The position numbers and the translations under genes are program-made. 64,000 nucleotides of DNA, taken from NCBI GenBank assembly GCA_021323655.1, contig JAJPKO010000065.1, positions 62,001-126,000 on the forward strand. The letters are read 5' to 3'. The notes under the pieces were generated by a model. That model ran no database searches. It was not told the DNA's origin and was given only the letters and a program-made list of their open reading frames with translations. The DNA comes from Acidobacteriaceae bacterium (GTDB taxonomy: Bacteria; Acidobacteriota; Terriglobia; Terriglobales; Acidobacteriaceae). Of this stretch, positions 52,716 to 62,372 are shown piece by piece (within the stretch, counting starts at the first letter, position 1; each line of letters begins with the position of its first letter).

Positions 52716-53813
52716 CTATTCTTCCTGTTCCTGCACCATCTTCGCTGTAATGATTCGGTGCTGGACCCAGTTATAAGGCGGCACAGTGTGTCCGCGCAGG
52801 ATTGCAACTCCTAATTGAACAAGTCGCGGTCCATAGCTGTGCGCCTCGTGCGATACAGAAGCAATGATTGGGCTCTGCGGCTTTTTCATTTCTTCCAGCA
52901 CTTCAGGAATGCAGTCCTGACCGACAATCGCAACGTTCTTTTCCCGCTGCGCATCCAAAGTGGCCTGCAATGCACCTAACGCGCTTGTGTCAGTTGCGGC
53001 AGCAATCAGAATACGGTCTGTCCTCTGATGGCGCTTGAAAAAATCAGCAACCACCCGTGCGCTGGTCTCCCTCATGCCGCGGCCATCCAATCGGATCAAC
53101 GCTTCCTGCGGCAGGTCAGGCAGAAGGGAACGGATGCCCTCAAACGCGCCTGTGATCCGGCTCTGCACAAAGCCACCTGCTTCGGCAACGTCCAAACCGA
53201 TCACCCAGTCCACCTTTTTCTTCCACCTGGAAATTGCATGTTGCGCCAGCAGCTCACCAGCCTCAAAGCCAACTTGGAAATTGTCCACTCCGAAATAACA
53301 GGCATGCGGATGTGGGATATCAATCGCAATCAACGGAATCCCTGCGCGCGAGATGATATGGGCGATCGTAGGAGCTACGTGTTCTTCAATCTGGAACTCG
53401 ATCACCAGGTCTACGCCCTCGGCAACAAATTCTCTGGCATTCTTAATCGCCGTATCTGCGTCGTAGCGGTTGTCGCGTACCAGCAGTTCTACTCCAGATG
53501 CAGCGGCAGCGGTCCTCAGGCTGGTGGTCACTGCTTCAGAAAACGGCATTTCCGCACTCTGTCCAGCAAAACCGAAACGGATTTTCTTGGGGCGTGAAAC
53601 CAGCCGGTAAGAGCCGTCAGGAGATTGCGCCACATAACCGCGATGCACAAATGTCTTCAGAATGCGGTAAACGCTTGTCTTTGAAATCTGCGAGCGCTGG
53701 TAGATGGCTTCCAGTGTGATGGGCCGTTTTTCTTCTTCTAGAAGCTCAAGAATATCGAGCGCTTTGGAGAGGATGGGAATAAGATAAAGCCGCTTGATCT
53801 TTTGCTGGGCCAA
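52716..53813 (-). CDS. IclR-type HTH fused to a periplasmic-binding-protein-like sensor domain
   Basis: 365 residues. The N-terminal 75 residues are an IclR-type winged helix (LSKALDILELLEEE, ISKTSVYRILKTFVHRGYVAQ). From about residue 77 the chain changes to a ribose-binding-like fold (IRFGFAGQSAEMPFSEAV, AIKNAREFVAEGVDLVIEFQI, GIPLIAIDIP) and ends in IASVSHEAHSYG. The usual IclR GAF-like domain is absent. LacI proteins pair this sensor with a different HTH, so the combination is unusual. Next to rhaB, it is most likely the rhamnose regulator. Confidence 0.85.
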   Translation of the reverse strand: MAQQKIKRLYLIPILSKALDILELLEEEKRPITLEAIYQRSQISKTSVYRILKTFVHRGYVAQSPDGSYRLVSRPKKIRFGFAGQSAEMPFSEAVTTSLRTAAAASGVELLVRDNRYDADTAIKNAREFVAEGVDLVIEFQIEEHVAPTIAHIISRAGIPLIAIDIPHPHACYFGVDNFQVGFEAGELLAQHAISRWKKKVDWVIGLDVAEAGGFVQSRITGAFEGIRSLLPDLPQEALIRLDGRGMRETSARVVADFFKRHQRTDRILIAAATDTSALGALQATLDAQREKNVAIVGQDCIPEVLEEMKKPQSPIIASVSHEAHSYGPRLVQLGVAILRGHTVPPYNWVQHRIITAKMVQEQEE

Positions 53814-53853: not shown

Positions 53854-55278
53854 TCAGCATTTTCTCATACCGGTCAGCGCGTCGGCCCAATAGGCAATAC
53901 GCTCACATGATCCAGCCGCACCTTCCAGAACGGCAAGCTGCACCGCAAAATTGCCCACCGTGGAACTTTCTGGCACGCCGCAAACCAGTTCCAGGCCAGT
54001 AGCTTCGCTTGTAAGGCGGTTCAGGAACTGGTTCTGACTTCCCCCTCCGACCATCGCAAGCCGCTTCAACTTTTTTCCGCTCAGATGTGCTGCGTTCCGA
54101 AGCACCTCAGCATACCGTGCCGCAAGGCTATGAAAGATGAGTGCTGCAAACTTCGGCATGGATGAGGCGCTTTCCTCGATGACAGCCAGGCCTCGTCTGG
54201 CCAGTTGAGCATTGATGCGCGAAGCCATCTTTCCGTGCAGCAGAAGGTCAGCGTCATCTACATCCAGAAGGTCCTTCGGCTGCGGCTCTCGCTCAGAAGC
54301 TGCAATTAGCTCCGGCATGGTCCAGCCCCCCTCAGGACACAACTGCTCCATACACTGCCGCAGCAACCACATTCCATTCACATTCTTGTGGAAGCACACC
54401 TGACCACCCGCCGCCCCAAGATTCGTGAAGCCGGACTGGAATGCCTCCTGGGTCGGAATCGAACGGTCAAGGAGAACGCCAACCAGCGACCATGTTCCGG
54501 AACTGATATAGGCCCAGTCATCGCCATGCAGAGGAATGCCCGCAACTGCCGAAGCAGTATCGTGGCAGCATGGCGCAATCAGTTTTGTGCCCCGATATGC
54601 AGAGCTTGCCGAAAAAGTATCGTTCGTACAACCCAGCATTGTCCCGGTAGAAACAAGCTGTGGTGCAGCATTCGCATCCAATCCAACCCGAGAAAAGATC
54701 TCCCCGCACCATTCATGCGTCTTTGCGTCCACCAATCCTGTGTGCGTAGCATTCGTAAGCTCGGAAACGCGGCCTCCGCCCAGATACATCAGCACATACT
54801 CCGGCAGATTGACCCACGGGCTGCTATTCGGCAGGCCAGCAATCCTGTCTGCCACCAATTGAAACAAGGTGTTCAATCGGAGTGGCTGCGCCCCGCCTAG
54901 AAGGAATAGTTCTTCCGGAGAAACATCTTTCCTCACCGCAACCTCAGCAGCCTCGGTCCGGATGTCCCGGTAGCAATACGGGTCGGCGGACGGTTTTCCA
55001 TCTCCATTCAGACGCACATAATCTACCGCCCATCCATCCACGCCAATGGAAGCGATGGAGTGAGGCGCATGCACCTCGCAAAGCCGCAGACCCTTCTCCA
55101 GTTCCGCGCAGATACGTCCGAGATCCCACCGTAATGTTCCGCCCCGTTCCACAGGAGCATTGCTGAAGCGATATATCAGATCAACGCGCGGTCTCCTGTT
55201 CTCCCAGCAGAGAAGCGAGACACGGCAACTCTCCGCGCCTAGATCAATCGCAACAATGGAAGGAAGGTGGTTCGGCAT
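53854..55278 (-). CDS. rhaB: L-Rhamnulose kinase
   Basis: 474 residues, a full FGGY kinase. N-terminal phosphate-binding AIDLGAESCRVSLL; the rhamnulokinase segment GVDGWAVDYVRLNGDGK; CCHDTASAVAGIPLHGDDWAYISSGTWSLVG; and LAMVGGGSQNQFLNRLTSEATGL near the end. It phosphorylates L-rhamnulose. 74 bases separate it from rhaD upstream on the same strand. Confidence 0.93.
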   Translation of the reverse strand: MPNHLPSIVAIDLGAESCRVSLLCWENRRPRVDLIYRFSNAPVERGGTLRWDLGRICAELEKGLRLCEVHAPHSIASIGVDGWAVDYVRLNGDGKPSADPYCYRDIRTEAAEVAVRKDVSPEELFLLGGAQPLRLNTLFQLVADRIAGLPNSSPWVNLPEYVLMYLGGGRVSELTNATHTGLVDAKTHEWCGEIFSRVGLDANAAPQLVSTGTMLGCTNDTFSASSAYRGTKLIAPCCHDTASAVAGIPLHGDDWAYISSGTWSLVGVLLDRSIPTQEAFQSGFTNLGAAGGQVCFHKNVNGMWLLRQCMEQLCPEGGWTMPELIAASEREPQPKDLLDVDDADLLLHGKMASRINAQLARRGLAVIEESASSMPKFAALIFHSLAARYAEVLRNAAHLSGKKLKRLAMVGGGSQNQFLNRLTSEATGLELVCGVPESSTVGNFAVQLAVLEGAAGSCERIAYWADALTGMRKC

Positions 55279-55351: not shown

Positions 55352-57577
55352 CTAGCGCAGAAACGCATCTGCTAGGCCCCCATCCACAGGGATCAAATGA
55401 CCTGTAGTGCAAGGCGCCTTCGTCCCTGCAAGAAACAGAATGGCTTCGGCACAGATACGTGGATCAATCGGCTGATGCGTGAGTGTTCGCTTCGCGTAGA
55501 ACTTCGCCAGTAGATTGCGCAGTTCATCATCACTCTGGCCAGCTTCAAACGGAATTTCATATTTTTTCAGCGAAGCAACAACTCGGTCACGAGGAAACAT
55601 CGTTGAGCCTTTGACCACGGTCGCCGGGCTGATGCCATTGACGCGAACCAGGGGCGCCTGCGAGACGGCAAGCTCTCGAACCAGATGGCTCAGCGCAGCC
55701 TTGCTCACGTCGTACGCTTCACTCCCCTTCTTCGCGACCACGGCATTGGCCGAACTGGTCAGCACAACACTTGCTGCAAGCCCCTGTTCACGCAGCAATC
55801 TCCCAATTTCATCCACCAGCAGATAATTCGCTGTCACATTAATTTCTAAAGTCAGCGCCCACTGCGCTTCGGTAATCACCCCATCAGGCGAAGAAGGGAA
55901 GATAGCAGCCGTATTCACCAGAATGTCCAGCCCCCCAAATGTTGCTACGGTTTCGCGCACTGCAGCACGAATCGCGTCCCGTTTGCGGATATCCACTGAT
56001 ACAGCAATCGCAGCTTCCTTCCCTGCAATTGCCTTCACCTCCTCAGCCACGCGCTCTGAACCTGCAAGATCGCGGTCAGCGATGACGACATGTGCCCCAC
56101 GCTCGGCTGCAAGCAATACGACTTCCCTGCCAATACCGCTCGCGCCACCAACCACAAGTGCAATCTGACGGCTCAGCTCTTTCTCAGGAGGTTGACGGCG
56201 GATTTTTGCCTCTTCCAGCTTCCAGTACTCAATCCGGAACGCCTCGGAAGGCGGCAGCGCCACATAGTTGTCTTCCACTTTGAAAACGTTGGCCAGCGCC
56301 GCAGATCCACACTGTGGGACCACATCAGAAACCTTACCCTCTTCCAGTCCAGCCGCCCCTTTCATCACATGGATCGCATTCACATAAAACTCTCCCGTGA
56401 TGCGAGATTCGGGTTTGTTCTTGCCAAAGCTGAGCATCCCTACGCCCGGAATCAGCACCACTGTCGGGTTTGCGTCCCGCATTGCGGGAGAAAGCTCGCC
56501 GCGGTGACTCGCGTAGTAATCTGCATAATCTTTGCGATATTTTCCAAGCCCATCCTCGATCTGCTTCTTCAGCGCCTCCACGCCGCTCGCCGGGTCCCAA
56601 TCCACATAAAATGGACGGATCTTCGTACGAATGAAATGATCAGGACAGCTTGTCCCCAGATACGCGAGTTTCGGCGCATCTACGGAATTCACAAACTCCA
56701 GCACTTCAGGCAAATCAGAGTACGTCCCAATCAGCCTACGCTGCTGTGAAACACGGCCACGCACAAAGGGCAAAACCTCAAGGGCCAACTCCCGGCGATC
56801 ATCGAGCGCCTTGCGCTTCTGCCCTCCAAAAATCGCGTTGCCCTTCTTTGCTACATGTTTCTCAATAAAGTCTGTCAGATCATCAATAATGGAAATCGTG
56901 TTCGCATAGCATTCCCGCTGCGTGTCCCCCCAGGTGAACAACCCGTGTCCACCTAAAATCACGCCATCACAGCCTGGGTTCTCCCCGACTGCCCGCTTCA
57001 GCATCATTCCCAGCTCAAAACCAGGGCGTTGCCACGGCAGCCACACCAACTTGTGTCCATACTCCCGATTAAACTGCTCCATCTTTTCCCGCCCATTCGC
57101 GGCGGCGGCTAGTGCAATCGCGCAGTCGGGATGAAGGTGGTCTACATGTGCAAATGGTAGAAAACCATGAAGCGGCGTATCAATCGAAGCAGCCACCGGA
57201 TTGATTCCAAAGGTACAAAGTGGATAGTAGTCCACCATCTCATCTTCAAACTCTGCCCCCCTGTACAGCGACTCCAGCGCCAACAGCTTATCAAGATAAA
57301 GAGTGGCAAAGCCGCTGCGCTTAATGCTGCCCAGGTCCCCGCCGCTGCCCTTCACCCACAGGACTGGCTTTGTGCTCCCGTCCAGCGGATCCGCCTGGTG
57401 GATCTTTGAGCTGGTGTTTCCTCCACCAAAGTTGGTGATACGCAGATCAGAGCCAAGCAAATTTGAGCGGTAGCGCAATAACTCAGGCTCATCCATTCCG
57501 CTCACCTCGCTGTCATTCCATCGGTCTTCCAGATACTTCAGGCTGAGTTTTTTACGAGATCCAGCAACGGGAGACAT
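55352..57577 (-). CDS. rhaD: Bifunctional L-rhamnulose-1-phosphate aldolase/lactaldehyde dehydrogenase-type SDR
   Basis: 741 residues. The first ~430 are a class II aldolase (zinc His in HVDHLHPDCAIAL; HGLFTWGDTQRECYANTISI). From about 480 onward a classical SDR begins (VVGGASGIGREVVLLAAERGAHVVIADRD, VLTSSANAVVAKKGSEAYDVSKAAL with Tyr and Lys). This RhaEW-like fusion cleaves rhamnulose 1-phosphate and then oxidises L-lactaldehyde. It lies between rhaB and rhaI. Confidence 0.93.
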   Translation of the reverse strand: MSPVAGSRKKLSLKYLEDRWNDSEVSGMDEPELLRYRSNLLGSDLRITNFGGGNTSSKIHQADPLDGSTKPVLWVKGSGGDLGSIKRSGFATLYLDKLLALESLYRGAEFEDEMVDYYPLCTFGINPVAASIDTPLHGFLPFAHVDHLHPDCAIALAAAANGREKMEQFNREYGHKLVWLPWQRPGFELGMMLKRAVGENPGCDGVILGGHGLFTWGDTQRECYANTISIIDDLTDFIEKHVAKKGNAIFGGQKRKALDDRRELALEVLPFVRGRVSQQRRLIGTYSDLPEVLEFVNSVDAPKLAYLGTSCPDHFIRTKIRPFYVDWDPASGVEALKKQIEDGLGKYRKDYADYYASHRGELSPAMRDANPTVVLIPGVGMLSFGKNKPESRITGEFYVNAIHVMKGAAGLEEGKVSDVVPQCGSAALANVFKVEDNYVALPPSEAFRIEYWKLEEAKIRRQPPEKELSRQIALVVGGASGIGREVVLLAAERGAHVVIADRDLAGSERVAEEVKAIAGKEAAIAVSVDIRKRDAIRAAVRETVATFGGLDILVNTAAIFPSSPDGVITEAQWALTLEINVTANYLLVDEIGRLLREQGLAASVVLTSSANAVVAKKGSEAYDVSKAALSHLVRELAVSQAPLVRVNGISPATVVKGSTMFPRDRVVASLKKYEIPFEAGQSDDELRNLLAKFYAKRTLTHQPIDPRICAEAILFLAGTKAPCTTGHLIPVDGGLADAFLR

Positions 57578-57689
57578 ATGCGTTTCTTTTTCCTTTCGTC
57601 CGGCCAGACCAGCATCTCTGACTACGAGGCAGTGAAACGATTTCTACGCTTGCTGGCTGAAGGCACGGACAATAATCTGATTATATCTA

Positions 57690-57703
57690 TATAGAATTTA
57701 TTT
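57690..57703. promoter_or_regulatory. Possible second rhamnose operator
   Basis: TATAGAATTTATTT matches 11 of 15 bases of the inverted repeat at 58988-59002 (other orientation) and overlaps the palindrome TCTATATAGA. It lies after rhaI and about 110 bases before rhaD. Confidence 0.3.
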
Positions 57704-57716
57704 ACCGATAGAATTA

Positions 57717-58919
57717 TCAGGCATAGCTGCTTATCAGCGAAGTATTCCGCGTCCTGCGCTCACGCTCAATTTTTTCCACATACCCGCTCGCGCGCAATGC
57801 TTTCAACGGATCCGTCGGAAGGCCCTTTCTCTCCCGCCACGTTCTCAGCAGAGGACGCACGTCCGTCCAGAAAGCATCCCGCAGGCACTCTTCCGCCTCA
57901 ACCGTGTTCGCCGTCGCCTGCAACTCAGCCAGTCTGTTATGGTCTACCAGCAGCGCCTTCGCATACAGCTCCTGCGCAATAACTACAGTCTGCACCATGG
58001 CTTCAAGTTTGCCTTTGATGTTGTGGCTCTGGTCCACCATATATGCAATCGAACTGGAAGCTCCTCCAGCGGGATCGCTCAGAATTTCATGGAAGATGCG
58101 AAATACCTGGTATGGATCAATTGAGCCAATGGTCAGATCGTCATCCGCATAACGGCGGTCATTAAAGTGGAACCCACCCAGCCTGCCCAGATGCAGCAGC
58201 CACGCCACAATCTGTTCAATATTCTGCGCCTGGTAATGGTGCCCTGTGTCAACCAGAACAAAGGCCTTTGGTCCTACTGCGCGCGCCAGGTTTGCTGACA
58301 TGCCCCAGTCGGCAATGTCGGTAAAGTAGAACGCTGGCTCAAATGGCTTATATTCAATCAGCAACCGCTGGCCATCATCCAGCGCATCATGCGTCACACG
58401 CAGCGCTTCTTCCATCCACGCAATTCGGTTGCGAATGCTCTGTGCGCCGGGATAATTCGACCCATCCGCCACCCACAGTGAAATGTCTTGCGACCCCAGC
58501 ACCTTCGCAATCTCAACTGAATCCAGCAGATGGTCCACTGCTTTACGCCGGATCCCCGCATCCGGGTTGCAAATGGAGCCGAACTTGTACTCCTGGTTCT
58601 GAAAGAGATTGGGGTTGATGGATCCGGCCCGTACCCCATAGCGGGACACCAGCTGCTTCACAATCTGAGCATCACCCACTCCGCCCGGCAGGTCCCATAA
58701 AACATGGAGCGCAAGCGAAGGCGTCGCTCCCGTCAAGTTATGCACCTGGGCTGCATCGGCAAACTTTTCTTCCAGCGTCCCTGCAGCACCAGGCTGCAAA
58801 AACTTGCCAAACCGCGTGCCTGTATTTGCAAAACCCCACGAAGGGATCTCAATCACAAAGCTGTCCAGCTTCTCTAAAACCCCTTCAAACACCCGCTCCG
58901 CGCGGCCATCTGTGCTCAT
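57717..58919 (-). CDS. rhaI: L-Rhamnose isomerase (Pseudomonas stutzeri type)
   Basis: 400 residues. A TIM-barrel xylose-isomerase-like protein with IPSWGFANTGTRFGKF, SIWVADGSN-like strand KVLGSQDISLWVADGSNY, LLIEYKPFEPAFY (metal Glu), LVDTGHHYQAQNIE (metal Asp/His) and GGFHFNDRRYADDDL. This is the RhaI form, unrelated in sequence to E. coli RhaA. It turns L-rhamnose into L-rhamnulose. Divergent from the glycosidase gene. Confidence 0.93.
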   Translation of the reverse strand: MSTDGRAERVFEGVLEKLDSFVIEIPSWGFANTGTRFGKFLQPGAAGTLEEKFADAAQVHNLTGATPSLALHVLWDLPGGVGDAQIVKQLVSRYGVRAGSINPNLFQNQEYKFGSICNPDAGIRRKAVDHLLDSVEIAKVLGSQDISLWVADGSNYPGAQSIRNRIAWMEEALRVTHDALDDGQRLLIEYKPFEPAFYFTDIADWGMSANLARAVGPKAFVLVDTGHHYQAQNIEQIVAWLLHLGRLGGFHFNDRRYADDDLTIGSIDPYQVFRIFHEILSDPAGGASSSIAYMVDQSHNIKGKLEAMVQTVVIAQELYAKALLVDHNRLAELQATANTVEAEECLRDAFWTDVRPLLRTWRERKGLPTDPLKALRASGYVEKIERERRTRNTSLISSYA

Positions 58920-58987
58920 TTCATCCTCTTTTCAGAGCTGACTCCAGCAAGCAAAGCGGAGTGTAGCTCCATCCATCATACATTTTC

Positions 58988-59002
58988 AATAGAAATTCTA
59001 TT
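58988..59002. promoter_or_regulatory. Perfect inverted repeat in the rhaI/glycosidase divergent promoter
   Basis: AATAGAA-A-TTCTATT: 7-base arms with a 1-base centre, 69 bases upstream of rhaI and 24 upstream of the glycosidase ORF. Placed to control both directions; the IclR-HTH regulator of the locus is the likely ligand-responsive binder. Confidence 0.65.
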
Positions 59003-59025
59003 TCATATTTGTACTTGAACATACT

Positions 59026-60546
59026 ATGATTACGCCAATGAGCTTTCGGCCGGTTCCTATGACGCAAAACAAAGCACTCCTGGTCCTCGCCCTCCTGGTA
59101 GTTTCATTACCGCTTACGGTACAGCCCCAATCCATCCAGGTAGATTGGGACAAGACCCTCATCGTTTCCAAATCAACCCCAACATTGCAGGTCGTCGTCA
59201 ACCCCATGCTGCGTCGCGGCTCGCCTATCCACGACCAGTCGTTTGCAGCATTGAAGGCGCTGGGTGCAGAGTACGTCCGCTACGTCCCCTGGCTCCCCTA
59301 TCCCCGGCTAGCCGTTGCCGAACTCGAAAAGGGCAAGTGGGATCTTTCGCTGATTGACCCCATGACCACTGACTTCCTCTCTGCTACTGAGGGGCATTCC
59401 ACCATCATCAACTTCAGCACCATTCCCGCATGGCTCTTCAAGACTGACAAACCCATCACCTATCCTGATGATCCGGACCAGGTCACATGGGATTACACCC
59501 AAGGCACTCAATTAAATGATCCATCTGGGAAAGAACTCGGCGACTACTACGCACGCCTTGTGAGCTGGTACACAAATGGCGGCTTTACCGACGAAAACGG
59601 TAAAGAGCACCATTCAGGACACCATTACAGCTTTCCCTACTGGGAGGTCCTGAACGAGCCGGACTTCGAGCACCACACCACTCCTCAGCAGTACACAGAG
59701 CGCTATGACGCCATTGTTTCGGCCATCCATCAGGTCAGCCCGCAGACAAAATTCGTTGGCCTGGCGCTGGCCATGGCTGACCGGCCGGACATGTACGAAT
59801 ATTTCCTCAATCATGCGAATCACAAACCCGGGGTGCCTCTCGATTTTATCTCGTACCACTTTTATGCTTCGCCTACCGATGGCCACGATCCCAACGTTTG
59901 GCAATACTCCTTCTTTGATCAGGCCGACAGGTTTTTAGCCGAGGTCAAATTCATCGAGGCCATTCGCAAACGCCTTTCTCCTGAAACCAAAACAGACATA
60001 GATGAATTGGGAGTGATCCTCCCCGGCGACGGGGAAGAAAACGCCCAGCGAAAGGCCCTCCCCTTCACTACGCCTGAAATCTACTGGAATGCCGCTGGGG
60101 CCCTCTATGCTTACCTCTTCATTGGCCTTACCAATCAGGGCATTGACGTCATCGGCGAATCGCAGCTTGTAGGCTATCCTTCACAATTTCCCAGTGTTTC
60201 CATGATGGATTGGCGCACCGGTAAACCAAACGCACGCTATTGGGTACTGAAGTTGATCAAAGACAATTTCCATCCCGGCGACAAGTTGACCGAAACGCAC
60301 ATCTCTCATGATCAACAGGAGATAGCGGCCCAGGCTTTTCTTACTCCTCAGGGCAGGAAACTGCTCCTCATCAATAAGAGGAACCGCGCCGCGCAAATCA
60401 CACTTCCTGCTGAGGCCGCAGCCGCAACTTTATCTACTGTGAACGAAAGCACCGGGGATGGACCGCCGCAGATCAGTCAGGTAAGTGGAACAACTATCAC
60501 GCTCGCACCCTATGCCGTCACAGTTGTCTCATGGCCATTGCGTTAA
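59026..60546 (+). CDS. Exported glycoside hydrolase, clan GH-A (GH39-like)
   Basis: 506 residues from the ATG at 59026; ATGs at 59038 and 59059 are also possible, since none has a clear ribosome site. Signal segment NKALLVLALLVVSLPLTVQ. The clan GH-A acid/base Glu is in FPYWEVLNEPDFEH (about Glu211), and a likely nucleophile Glu is in TDIDELGVILPG (about Glu327). A C-terminal beta-sandwich follows. GH39 enzymes act on beta-xylosides or uronic acids; in this locus a rhamnose-bearing glycoside is a fair guess. Cotranscribed with rhaM, 13 bases after. Confidence 0.82.
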   Translation: MITPMSFRPVPMTQNKALLVLALLVVSLPLTVQPQSIQVDWDKTLIVSKSTPTLQVVVNPMLRRGSPIHDQSFAALKALGAEYVRYVPWLPYPRLAVAELEKGKWDLSLIDPMTTDFLSATEGHSTIINFSTIPAWLFKTDKPITYPDDPDQVTWDYTQGTQLNDPSGKELGDYYARLVSWYTNGGFTDENGKEHHSGHHYSFPYWEVLNEPDFEHHTTPQQYTERYDAIVSAIHQVSPQTKFVGLALAMADRPDMYEYFLNHANHKPGVPLDFISYHFYASPTDGHDPNVWQYSFFDQADRFLAEVKFIEAIRKRLSPETKTDIDELGVILPGDGEENAQRKALPFTTPEIYWNAAGALYAYLFIGLTNQGIDVIGESQLVGYPSQFPSVSMMDWRTGKPNARYWVLKLIKDNFHPGDKLTETHISHDQQEIAAQAFLTPQGRKLLLINKRNRAAQITLPAEAAAATLSTVNESTGDGPPQISQVSGTTITLAPYAVTVVSWPLR

Positions 60547-60559
60547 CAGAAGGAGATCC

Positions 60560-60877
60560 ATGCAGAGAGTTGCTTTTATGCTGAAATTGCGCCCCGGCAC
60601 CGGACCTGCGTATGACAAAGCGCACGAGGCCGTTTGGCCAGAGATGCTCAACCTGCTCAAAAGCTCAGGAGTACAGGAATATTCCATCTTCCGTCGTGAC
60701 GAACTGCTCTTCCTTTACATGCGCGTTGAAGATTTTGAAGCGACCTGGCAGAAAATCGAACAAAGCCCCATAAACACGCGCTGGCAACAGGCCATGTCAG
60801 AATATTTTGCCCCTTTGGAAGGACTCCGCGAGAACGAACGTTTTCCCATGATGCGCGAGGTCTTCCATTTACCCTGA
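60560..60877 (+). CDS. rhaM: L-Rhamnose mutarotase
   Basis: 105 residues from the ATG at 60560 with AAGGAG 6 bases upstream. RVAFMLKLRPGTGPAYDKAHEAVWPEM is the RhaM signature (His and Tyr residues), followed by YSIFRRDELLFLYMRVEDF. It speeds interconversion of alpha- and beta-L-rhamnose, supplying the anomer that RhaI takes. Confidence 0.94.
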   Translation: MQRVAFMLKLRPGTGPAYDKAHEAVWPEMLNLLKSSGVQEYSIFRRDELLFLYMRVEDFEATWQKIEQSPINTRWQQAMSEYFAPLEGLRENERFPMMREVFHLP

Positions 60878-60944
60878 CGCTGCGCGCGCGTGCATCACGT
60901 CTTTATTGAATGAAACACCAGCTATAAGCGGAACTCAGAAATCT

Positions 60945-62372
60945 ATGTCCTCACCAATCCTGAAACTTGGCCTCTGCGGAATCGGCCTCGATGCTTACTG
61001 GCCCCAGTTCCCCGGACTGAAACAACGTCTGGAGAGCTACACTCAGACTGCCGCAAACCGTCTTGCCCAATACGGCGCAGACGTGACCAATCTCGGCCTG
61101 ATAGATACCACTGAGAGAGCGCGTCAAGCCGGCCACGCTTTCCGCCGCGCGGATATTGACCTGCTCTTCCTGTACGTCACAACATACGCACTTTCAAGCA
61201 CCGTCCTGCCACTGATCAAACTAGCAGGAGTCCCTGTCATCATCCTCAACCTGCAGCCGGACGCCGCCATGGACTATGCAGTGTTCAACCAGTTAAAAGA
61301 TCGCACTGCAATGACAGGAGAATGGCTCGCCTGGTGCTCTGCCTGTCCGGTACCTGAAATCTCCAACGTGCTGCAGCGCGCTCGGATTCCATTCCACCAG
61401 GTCACCGGAACTTTAAACGACGACCTCACGTGGCGAGAAATCGAGGAGTGGATTGCCGCAGCAAAAGTAAAGTTGCTGCTTGAAAATAATCGTCTTGGCC
61501 TTATGGGTCATTACTACTCCGGCATGCTCGACATCATGACCGACCTCACTCAGATATGCATCACCTTTGGCGGTGATATCGAAATCATCGAAGTGGACGA
61601 GTTGAGCGCCCTCCGCACACAAGTGACAGACGCCGATGTAACACAACGTACAGCCGAGTTCCACGAATACTTCGATATTCAGCCTGACTGCTCCAGTGAA
61701 GAATTGCGCCGTGCTGCTTTGACTTCGGTTGCTTTAGATAGATTTGCCGCGAATCATAAACTCACTTCTCTGGCCTACTACTATAAGGGCACCGGCATTC
61801 CCGCCAATGAAGACACGATGAGTTCCATCATCCTCGGAACATCGCTGCTGACCGCGCGGCATATTCCAGTCGCCGGTGAATACGAAATCAAGAACATCAT
61901 CGCGATGAAAATTATGGATTCTTTGGGCGTTGGTGGGTCCTTCACTGAATATTATGCCGTTGATTACAAAGACGACATCGTCCTGATGGGGCACGACGGT
62001 CCTGGCCATATTGCAATTGCGGAAGGCAAAACAAAAGTAAGGCCGCTGTCCGTCTACCATGGAAAAACAGGCCTCGGGCTCTCGGTGGAAATGAGCGTAA
62101 AGCATGGTCCGGTCACGCTGCTTTCCATTGTGGAGGACCGCGCGCATGGCTTTAAGCTACTCGTCGCACAAGCCGAATCTGTTCCCGGCAGCATCCTGGA
62201 AATCGGGAACACCAACAGCCGCTACCGCTTTCCTATCGGAGCCAGGGCCTTCATCACTCAATGGAACGGCCACGGCCCTGCACACCATTGCGCTGTGGGA
62301 ACAGGCCATGTCGCGCACAAACTGGAAAAACTGGCGAGACTACTCGGCCTCGAATTTCATCGAGTGTGTTGA
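60945..62372 (+). CDS. L-fucose/L-arabinose isomerase-family protein of unknown substrate
   Basis: 475 residues from the ATG at 60945; a TTG at 60906 extends it by 13 residues. The fold is that of AraA/FucI: a N-terminal sugar-site part (GIGLDAYWPQFPGLKQRLESYTQ), LPLIKLAGVPVIILNLQP, NRLGLMGHYYSGMLDIMTD, VAGEYEIKNIIAMKIMDSLG (metal Glu) and MGHDGPGHIAI (metal His). Longer relatives carry ARA1/FucI function; here rhamnose already has RhaI, so its role is an open question. Last gene of the divergent arm. Confidence 0.8.
   Translation: MSSPILKLGLCGIGLDAYWPQFPGLKQRLESYTQTAANRLAQYGADVTNLGLIDTTERARQAGHAFRRADIDLLFLYVTTYALSSTVLPLIKLAGVPVIILNLQPDAAMDYAVFNQLKDRTAMTGEWLAWCSACPVPEISNVLQRARIPFHQVTGTLNDDLTWREIEEWIAAAKVKLLLENNRLGLMGHYYSGMLDIMTDLTQICITFGGDIEIIEVDELSALRTQVTDADVTQRTAEFHEYFDIQPDCSSEELRRAALTSVALDRFAANHKLTSLAYYYKGTGIPANEDTMSSIILGTSLLTARHIPVAGEYEIKNIIAMKIMDSLGVGGSFTEYYAVDYKDDIVLMGHDGPGHIAIAEGKTKVRPLSVYHGKTGLGLSVEMSVKHGPVTLLSIVEDRAHGFKLLVAQAESVPGSILEIGNTNSRYRFPIGARAFITQWNGHGPAHHCAVGTGHVAHKLEKLARLLGLEFHRVC

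Follow-up and report, generated by a model that had tools for sequence, protein, structure and literature searches.

An IclR-type winged helix joined to a ribose-binding-protein-like domain in a candidate regulator of L-rhamnose catabolism in Acidobacteriota

We suggest that a gene adjoining rhaB in an Acidobacteriaceae genome encodes a cytosolic, ligand-released repressor of L-rhamnose catabolism, an Acidobacteriota regulator of RhaR type with a new architecture, and we put the probability of this reading at roughly 70%. The gene lies in the window, the whole stretch of 64,000 nucleotides that was analysed (Table 1). By computation we established the architecture and fold of its product, its linkage to rhaI, rhaD or rhaB, an operator-like box, and the co-occurrence of this box with the regulator. 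Together with clade-specific pocket residues, the linkage, the box and the co-occurrence support the original prediction, made from the sequence of the window, which had put the gene forward as a candidate rhamnose regulator.

Table 1. Coordinates, strand and basis of the features of the regulator locus within the window
Feature	Position	Strand	Basis or remark
IclR-HTH / periplasmic-type sugar-binding-domain regulator	52716..53813	-	TTG start, 365 aa ORF
Sugar-binding-protein domain, residues 80-341	52791..53576	-	PF13407 1.3e-24, 2ioy fold match
IclR winged helix-turn-helix, residues 15-64	53622..53771	-	PF09339 1.6e-14, PDB profile, Foldseek/VIA
rhaB, rhamnulokinase	53854..55278	-	TIGR02627 E 3.4e-91, 306.1 bits, under curated cut-off 528
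rhaD-type aldolase fused to short-chain dehydrogenase (rhaD-SDR)	55352..57577	-	NF006189 1003.9 bits, cut-off 634
Weak second operator-like box upstream of rhaD	57684..57704	+	5 mismatches to 21-mer
rhaI, L-rhamnose isomerase	57717..58919	-	TIGR02635 508.6 bits, just under cut-off 531
Predicted rhaI promoter TTGAAA-18-TACACT	58960..58989	-	-35 inside operator
Predicted operator TTTCAATAGAAATTCTATTTCA	58984..59005	.	core palindrome 58988-59002; common to both divergent units
Predicted divergent promoter TTCATA-17-TATGAT, GH39 unit	59002..59030	+	-35 overlaps operator's other end; consensus match only
GH39-like gene, divergent from rhaI	59026..60546	+	PF01229 4.5e-9
rhaM, L-rhamnose mutarotase	60560..60877	+	PF05336 2.7e-27
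Arabinose/fucose-isomerase-like protein, specificity not assigned	60906..62372	+	PF11762 4.5e-8

In Pfam searches the regulator matches HTH_IclR at residues 15-64 with 53.8 bits (cut-off 22) and Peripla_BP_4 at residues 80-341 with 87.6 bits (cut-off 35.1); Peripla_BP_1, the model that includes LacI sensors, reaches 34.0 bits. Both HTH_IclR and Peripla_BP_4 are present in 45 of 45 aligned family members, the window's protein counted (Pfam, E <= 1e-3), which bears out the predicted order of an IclR-type HTH ahead of a ribose-binding-like domain. Neither the IclR C-terminal (GAF-like) effector domain nor the LacI HTH model is among the 21 Pfam families matched by these 45 members. The protein thus has the N-terminal winged HTH of the IclR family but not its C-terminal effector domain, and the periplasmic-binding-protein-like sugar sensor of the LacI/GalR family but not a LacI-type HTH with hinge helix. 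This domain content rules out an ordinary IclR or an ordinary LacI protein, and the presence of both halves in all 45 members rules out a fusion created by frameshift or misassembly. We likewise rejected an exported protein that matches the HTH model by chance, since a confident winged HTH is modelled at residues 13-71. A CUT2-type ABC sugar-binding protein would carry a signal peptide and adjoin an ABC permease and ATPase; here the HTH forms the N-terminus, and no ABC parts were found in the nine scanned window neighbours (sugar enzymes, peptidase, MFS protein, transhydrogenase). Because the N-terminus is the HTH, the sensor half should be cytosolic.

The regulator gene adjoins rhaB, as predicted, and the rest of the pathway follows. 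On the minus strand the order is rhaI, rhaD-SDR, rhaB and regulator, with the regulator starting 40 bp beyond the end of rhaB; the GH39-like gene, rhaM and the arabinose/fucose-isomerase-like gene run in the opposite direction from the rhaI promoter region. Neighbours were identified by family models, with rhaD-SDR above and rhaI and rhaB below the NCBIfam equivalog cut-offs, and for rhaM we chose the later start at 60560 over the 60485 of the open reading frame list. Genes for an M28 peptidase, an MFS protein and a transhydrogenase subunit lie farther out in the window. The set that stands opposite rhaI here (GH39-like, rhaM, isomerase-like) is found in L084, L085 and L087 near a 37-40% identical regulator paralogue.

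We compared 40 fetched stretches and five close acidobacterial loci from an exact-peptide contig scan. The window's clade comprises 26 loci, picked by regulator similarity (identity >= 55%) and not by their neighbours. These loci are related (nine, from seven genomes, belong to genus g33), so counts over them are not independent. We term the g33 loci Edaphobacter-type, as they agree with the named Edaphobacter locus L055 in gene order and box. We found rhaI, rhaD or rhaB at 24 of the 26 clade loci, a count taken within the clade alone. The two unlinked loci, L073 and L074, hold second copies, and their genomes (G087 and G253) also hold a linked one. Their regulators, at 59-60% identity, share a common company of other genes without rha genes and probably respond to a different sugar. 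Further neighbours in the clade, judged by one representative per cluster, are rhaT, a GH106 alpha-L-rhamnosidase gene, and lutA, lutB and lutC, whose products carry out lactate oxidation, the pathway's end. Outside the clade, rha genes also occur near L088, L090, L094 and L096.

Two of the 26 loci contain a LacI-type regulator, recognised by Pfam in L059 and by cluster membership in L065. In L065 (near 11161) it adjoins rhaI, and in L059 (3693-4802) some 4 kb separate it from the regulator; in these two loci another factor may act. Between rhaI and the regulator, L063 (5999-9058, by Pfam) and L064 (5320-8334, by similarity) carry a gene for a propeller/Y_Y_Y protein with a terminal GGDEF domain. 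The domain scan of neighbours covered a minority of the 401 neighbour clusters.

On reading the upstream regions we found one common box in the window, L053, L054, L058 and the Edaphobacter-type loci. For an unsupervised count we scored every 4-mer followed by a gap of 0-12 and its reverse complement (256x13 words) within at most 250 bases ahead of each gene, counting once any rows with identical last 100 bases, and as control we used the top count of any word in 20 shuffled sets. AATA-N7-TATT ranks first upstream of rhaI (13 of 29 rows, shuffled best 3), rhaT (16/23, shuffled best 3), lutA (13/17, shuffled best 3, with GCGG-N8 at 12) and rhaD (9/27, shuffled best 5). A different word is best at rhaB, an inner gene (5/22, shuffled 4). 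With one row per genus, the same word is first at rhaT (9/13), lutA (6/8, next word 5) and rhaI (4/12, or 5/12 counting any row) and ties for first at rhaD (5/16). As rhaT and lutA are often divergent, their sites are partly identical sites. The 15-mer at the core of the window's box, AATAGAAATTCTATT, is symmetric about its middle base; it is the very site that the original prediction had singled out, and it coincides with the window copy of AATA-N7-TATT. The box is no simple palindrome and varies between promoters, and most rhaD upstreams other than the window's have boxes with 3-7 mismatches to the 21-mer.

Upstream of the regulator itself, TTTC-N6-GAAA and CTCC-N6 tie for first place (9 of 59 rows, shuffled maximum 8). 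We also scanned the 26 clade loci, the window from 44,000 on, for TTTCNNTANNGAAA. All seven perfect matches among 468,022 positions lie 11-47 bases ahead of the called start of the regulator; the pattern was drawn from pre-regulator sites, and what is new is its absence elsewhere. This distribution suggests that the gene may be autoregulated where it has its own promoter. No site of this type was found ahead of the window's own regulator gene. Drawn by eye, TTTCNNTANNGAAA had also been considered as the best pattern for the enzyme-gene sites and was dropped when the unsupervised count gave AATA-N7-TATT.

The position of the box relative to predicted promoters bears on the mode of action. The box covers the predicted rhaI -35 in the window, L058 and L101, while in eight g33 rhaI rows it starts near the predicted +1 of a promoter with a TTGACA hexamer. 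These TTGACA promoters come from our own laxer scan; the promoter tool gave none in L060 at its threshold. The laxer scan finds a promoter in 13 of 16 box-bearing rhaI rows, with the box at the start site in eight, over the -35 in three and at other places in L047 and L115. Since promoters are nearly lacking in the rhaT rows (0/16) and lutA rows (1/12), the repressor geometry is read from rhaI alone. Repression is favoured because the box is found at two promoter positions that would both block polymerase.

The same protein could instead be a sugar-dependent activator that, sitting at about -41, recruits RNA polymerase when rhamnose is present. With its centre near -41 in the window's clade, the box lies where a class II activator might bind as well, the -35 hexamers (TTGAAA) of the window, L058 and L101 are weak, and the haloarchaeal IclR-type proteins RhcR, XacR and MscR are reported as activators (PMC11519228). 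However, activation is not expected from a box that lies at and past the predicted start of transcription from a TTGACA promoter, as in the eight g33 rows, and the window's regulator gene would lie inside the very unit that needs activation. We therefore consider an activator unlikely. As a repressor, the protein would act as follows. Without sugar, the IclR winged HTHs would sit on the 21-bp box (core AATAG-N5-CTATT), most likely as one dimer or two, and the bound regulator would block RNA polymerase; in the window it would cover the -35 hexamers of both divergent promoters. The units under its control would be rhaI-rhaD-rhaB-regulator on one side, with the regulator gene as the last gene of the putative operon, and GH39-rhaM-isomerase on the other. 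L-rhamnose or L-rhamnulose in the sensor cleft would close the domain and loosen its grip on DNA.

The original prediction had pointed to structure prediction and a fold search for both halves. AlphaFold2, run on the alignment of the 45 family members (window's protein included), gave a model with a mean pLDDT of 92.6 and a pTM of 0.78. The sensor half superimposes on the Thermoanaerobacter ribose-binding protein 2ioy (Z 34.2, rmsd 1.8, 271 residues aligned; Foldseek E 7.4e-19), and comparison of the whole model assigns residues 76-364 to the binding-protein fold. Since the sensor half fills the match list of the whole model and leaves HTH matches no place, we modelled the HTH alone (pLDDT 88.4). 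IclR-type proteins then rank first in Foldseek (8 rows with E <= 1e-3), and TtgV heads the VIA matches (Z 11.8), other winged helices scoring close to it. Most of the 11 solved relatives found with the HTH sequence profile in the PDB are IclR-family proteins by name. The two halves thus came out as anticipated, a ribose-binding-protein fold and an IclR-type HTH to which other winged-helix folds are close.

LacI sensors and binding proteins have one common fold, and the sensor half might be a LacI-family effector domain with a swapped HTH rather than a sugar-binding protein captured from an ABC transporter; Peripla_BP_1, a model that takes in LacI-type domains, does match it. Yet in both Pfam and PDB sequence comparisons the sensor scores nearer to transporter binding proteins than to LacI sensors. 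The Pfam scores given above, with Peripla_BP_4 far ahead of Peripla_BP_1, are reversed in the LacI protein of L059 (32.2 versus 83.5 bits). The best sequence relatives in the PDB are transporter-type sugar-binding proteins, the first named regulator being 3h5o at E 2.9e-4, and each of the 50 rows listed when the fold of the whole model was compared is a sugar-binding protein or a domain of that kind. The relatives on plasmids that we examined are binding proteins and lack an HTH. The plasmid scan gave 185 records with matches, and one place covering at least 80% of the query. Matches H12 and H1 have no HTH in Pfam, and H23, the match with at least 80% coverage, is annotated as a transport binding protein of 307 residues, with a LacI regulator encoded separately next to it; the match starts outside the annotated gene. 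A LacI origin of the sensor is accordingly a rather improbable alternative to capture of a transporter-type binding protein.

For the sugar pocket we mapped what we take to be the contact residues of RbsB (F15, N64, D89, R90, R141, D215 and Q235) onto the family. R219 (RbsB R141) is invariant in 47 of 47 members and F91 (F15) is F in 46 of the 47. In all 24 rhamnose-linked members D165 (D89) is D or E, while D300 (D215) and H322 (Q235) are fixed. The 23 other members have N (14), D (6), G (2) or E (1) at position 300 and Y (18), P (2), F (2) or H (1) at position 322. The pocket residues, as read from the alignment, would fit sugar binding with a clade-specific choice. Because I166 and F140 stand where RbsB has its contacts R90 and N64, the binding mode would differ from that of ribose. 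Judged by the neighbouring genes alone, the ligand would be L-rhamnose or L-rhamnulose.

The extended 21-bp box has a single site at up to 3 mismatches in the host genome. With up to 2 mismatches, TTTCAATAGARANTMTATTTC gives 21 sites in 19 of 120 genomes of the host family, and its reversed control pattern gives 2 sites in the same 120. Box and regulator searches of the 120 genomes were treated as one set, tallies by genus and completeness being equal. The 21-mer is found in 15 of 33 genomes with a rhamnose-clade regulator versus 4 of 87 without (Fisher P-value 4e-7, genome relatedness ignored); 18 of the 33 lack it at <=2 mismatches. Of the 17 sites in genomes that carry the regulator, 15 are placed at the 5' end of rhaI, rhaT or lutA, and the other two lie about 400 bp past rhaT (L111) and elsewhere (L118). 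The four genomes without the regulator have one of four sites at such a 5' end. This site (L116, 1501-1521) precedes lutA in genome G009, which is rated complete and has no regulator match; it may be a relic, a chance occurrence or the site of another regulator with the same specificity. The host's best rhaT match (L119/L123, host genome C18) lies away from the rha locus and is without the 21-mer, its upstream region having only TTTCAAACCGGAAA ahead of a TTGACA hexamer. Overall, both marks of a regulator of rhamnose catabolism, linkage to rha genes and a common upstream operator-like box, were found.

We regard as improbable, and as the weakest alternative, that the protein senses another sugar or signal, with its place in rhamnose loci incidental and a different factor binding the box: although family paralogues stand in loci without rhamnose genes, the rhamnose-clade copies L073 and L074 have no rha genes near and a LacI-type regulator occurs at two loci, linkage holds for nearly all clade loci, box and regulator co-occur, and that LacI protein is the only typical DNA-binding regulator among the minority of neighbour clusters put through Pfam.

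The regulator family extends beyond the rhamnose loci. The host genome (4.59 Mb) has four copies (weakest E 8.5e-57). Among 396 Acidobacteriota genomes 44, from 16 of 211 genera, carry the family (E <= 1e-20); 36 of these genomes belong to the host's family and eight are spread across seven other families. Five copies is the most seen per genome in this phylum scan, which scored at most five candidates each, and again the maximum in the 120 Acidobacteriaceae genomes, where up to 16 candidates were scored per genome. The family is present in 39 of the 120 and its rhamnose clade, by reading of the match list, in 33, two of them as fragments. The genome places behind L025 and L050 have homologues with an in-frame TAG inside the matched stretch. 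A quick tree groups 27 rows, 24 of which are rhamnose-linked (SH-aLRT 98); its root is unsure, as the outgroup consists of two binding proteins on very long branches that do not group together. Of the 19 regulators outside the rhamnose clade, 10 have a gene similar to three OMP_b-brl_4 / TonB-type receptors no more than three called genes away, as against none of 28 rows of the window's clade and L081/L082 (mechanical gene calls). Receptor-adjoining paralogues, some with glycan-related genes near, include L080 (host genome C48), L081, L087, L089-L092, L095 and L097, which suggests that they are further sugar-locus regulators of the same type. It is an even call whether this is an Acidobacteriota-wide family, an IclR winged HTH joined to a transport-type sugar-binding protein, that expanded as the phylum's own sugar switches, with one clade for rhamnose catabolism and others for outer-membrane-receptor and glycan-degrading loci, in a role held elsewhere by LacI-type or SusR-type proteins.

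The protein resembles IclR, PcaR and TtgV in its N-terminal winged HTH, by sequence and fold, and in its 15-bp palindromic operator core, a size typical of the IclR family, but unlike them it has the IclR C-terminal effector domain in none of the 45 members. In E. coli XylR, an activator, a sugar-binding-protein-type sensor is also combined with a foreign HTH, which is of AraC type and C-terminal. Closer in design is AraR of Bacillus subtilis, a regulator of sugar catabolism described as 'chimeric', with a GntR HTH joined to a LacI/sugar-binding-type domain (PMC4218819). The original prediction held that the IclR HTH is here without its usual partner, which stands, and that such sugar sensors always come with a LacI HTH, which is too strong in view of AraR. 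The regulator differs from AraR in that its HTH is of IclR and not GntR type, its sensor is nearest to ribose-binding-type transport proteins, its genes are for rhamnose and not arabinose, and its hosts are Acidobacteriota and not Bacillota. With RhcR of Haloferax, an IclR-type activator of rhamnose genes, it shares the HTH type and would share the target pathway; the paper that names RhcR (PMC11519228) gives IclR-like regulators of Bacteria and haloarchaea the usual two-domain composition, in which RhcR may thus differ from the protein described here. A 2013 comparative study of rhamnose regulons describes many unrelated regulator types (AraC, DeoR, LacI), and the words IclR and Acidobacteria are absent from its main text (PMC3870299). 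Like RhaR, RhaS, RhmR and RhiR, ours would be a local regulator of rhamnose loci, but those are AraC, DeoR or LacI proteins. An IclR-family census lists 80 companion domains, and its examined parts do not name a pairing with a sugar-binding domain (PMC5882156). Many known IclR/PBP fusions with a settled function would have spoken against the original prediction; in the literature searched, which covered few subscription journals, we found no description and no settled function of such a fusion, though homologous ones are many in Acidobacteriota. Overall, this is a real, conserved regulator type with a well-supported target set, and its design is a further version of the known chimeric sugar repressors, like Bacillus AraR built from other parts, rather than a system of a new kind.

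Gene regulation has been little studied in Acidobacteriota, which abound in soil as degraders of polymers. The present analysis yields for them a protein family together with an operator recognisable from sequence and a predicted regulon that spans transport, isomerase, kinase, aldolase, lactate oxidation and glycosidases. New sugar-responsive repressors for the laboratory might also be drawn from the family. It adds to LacI proteins and AraR another case of a sugar-binding-protein sensor placed under a different HTH, and its clades, set apart by fixed differences in the pocket (D300/H322 versus mostly N/Y), offer a series for how a binding protein becomes a switch.
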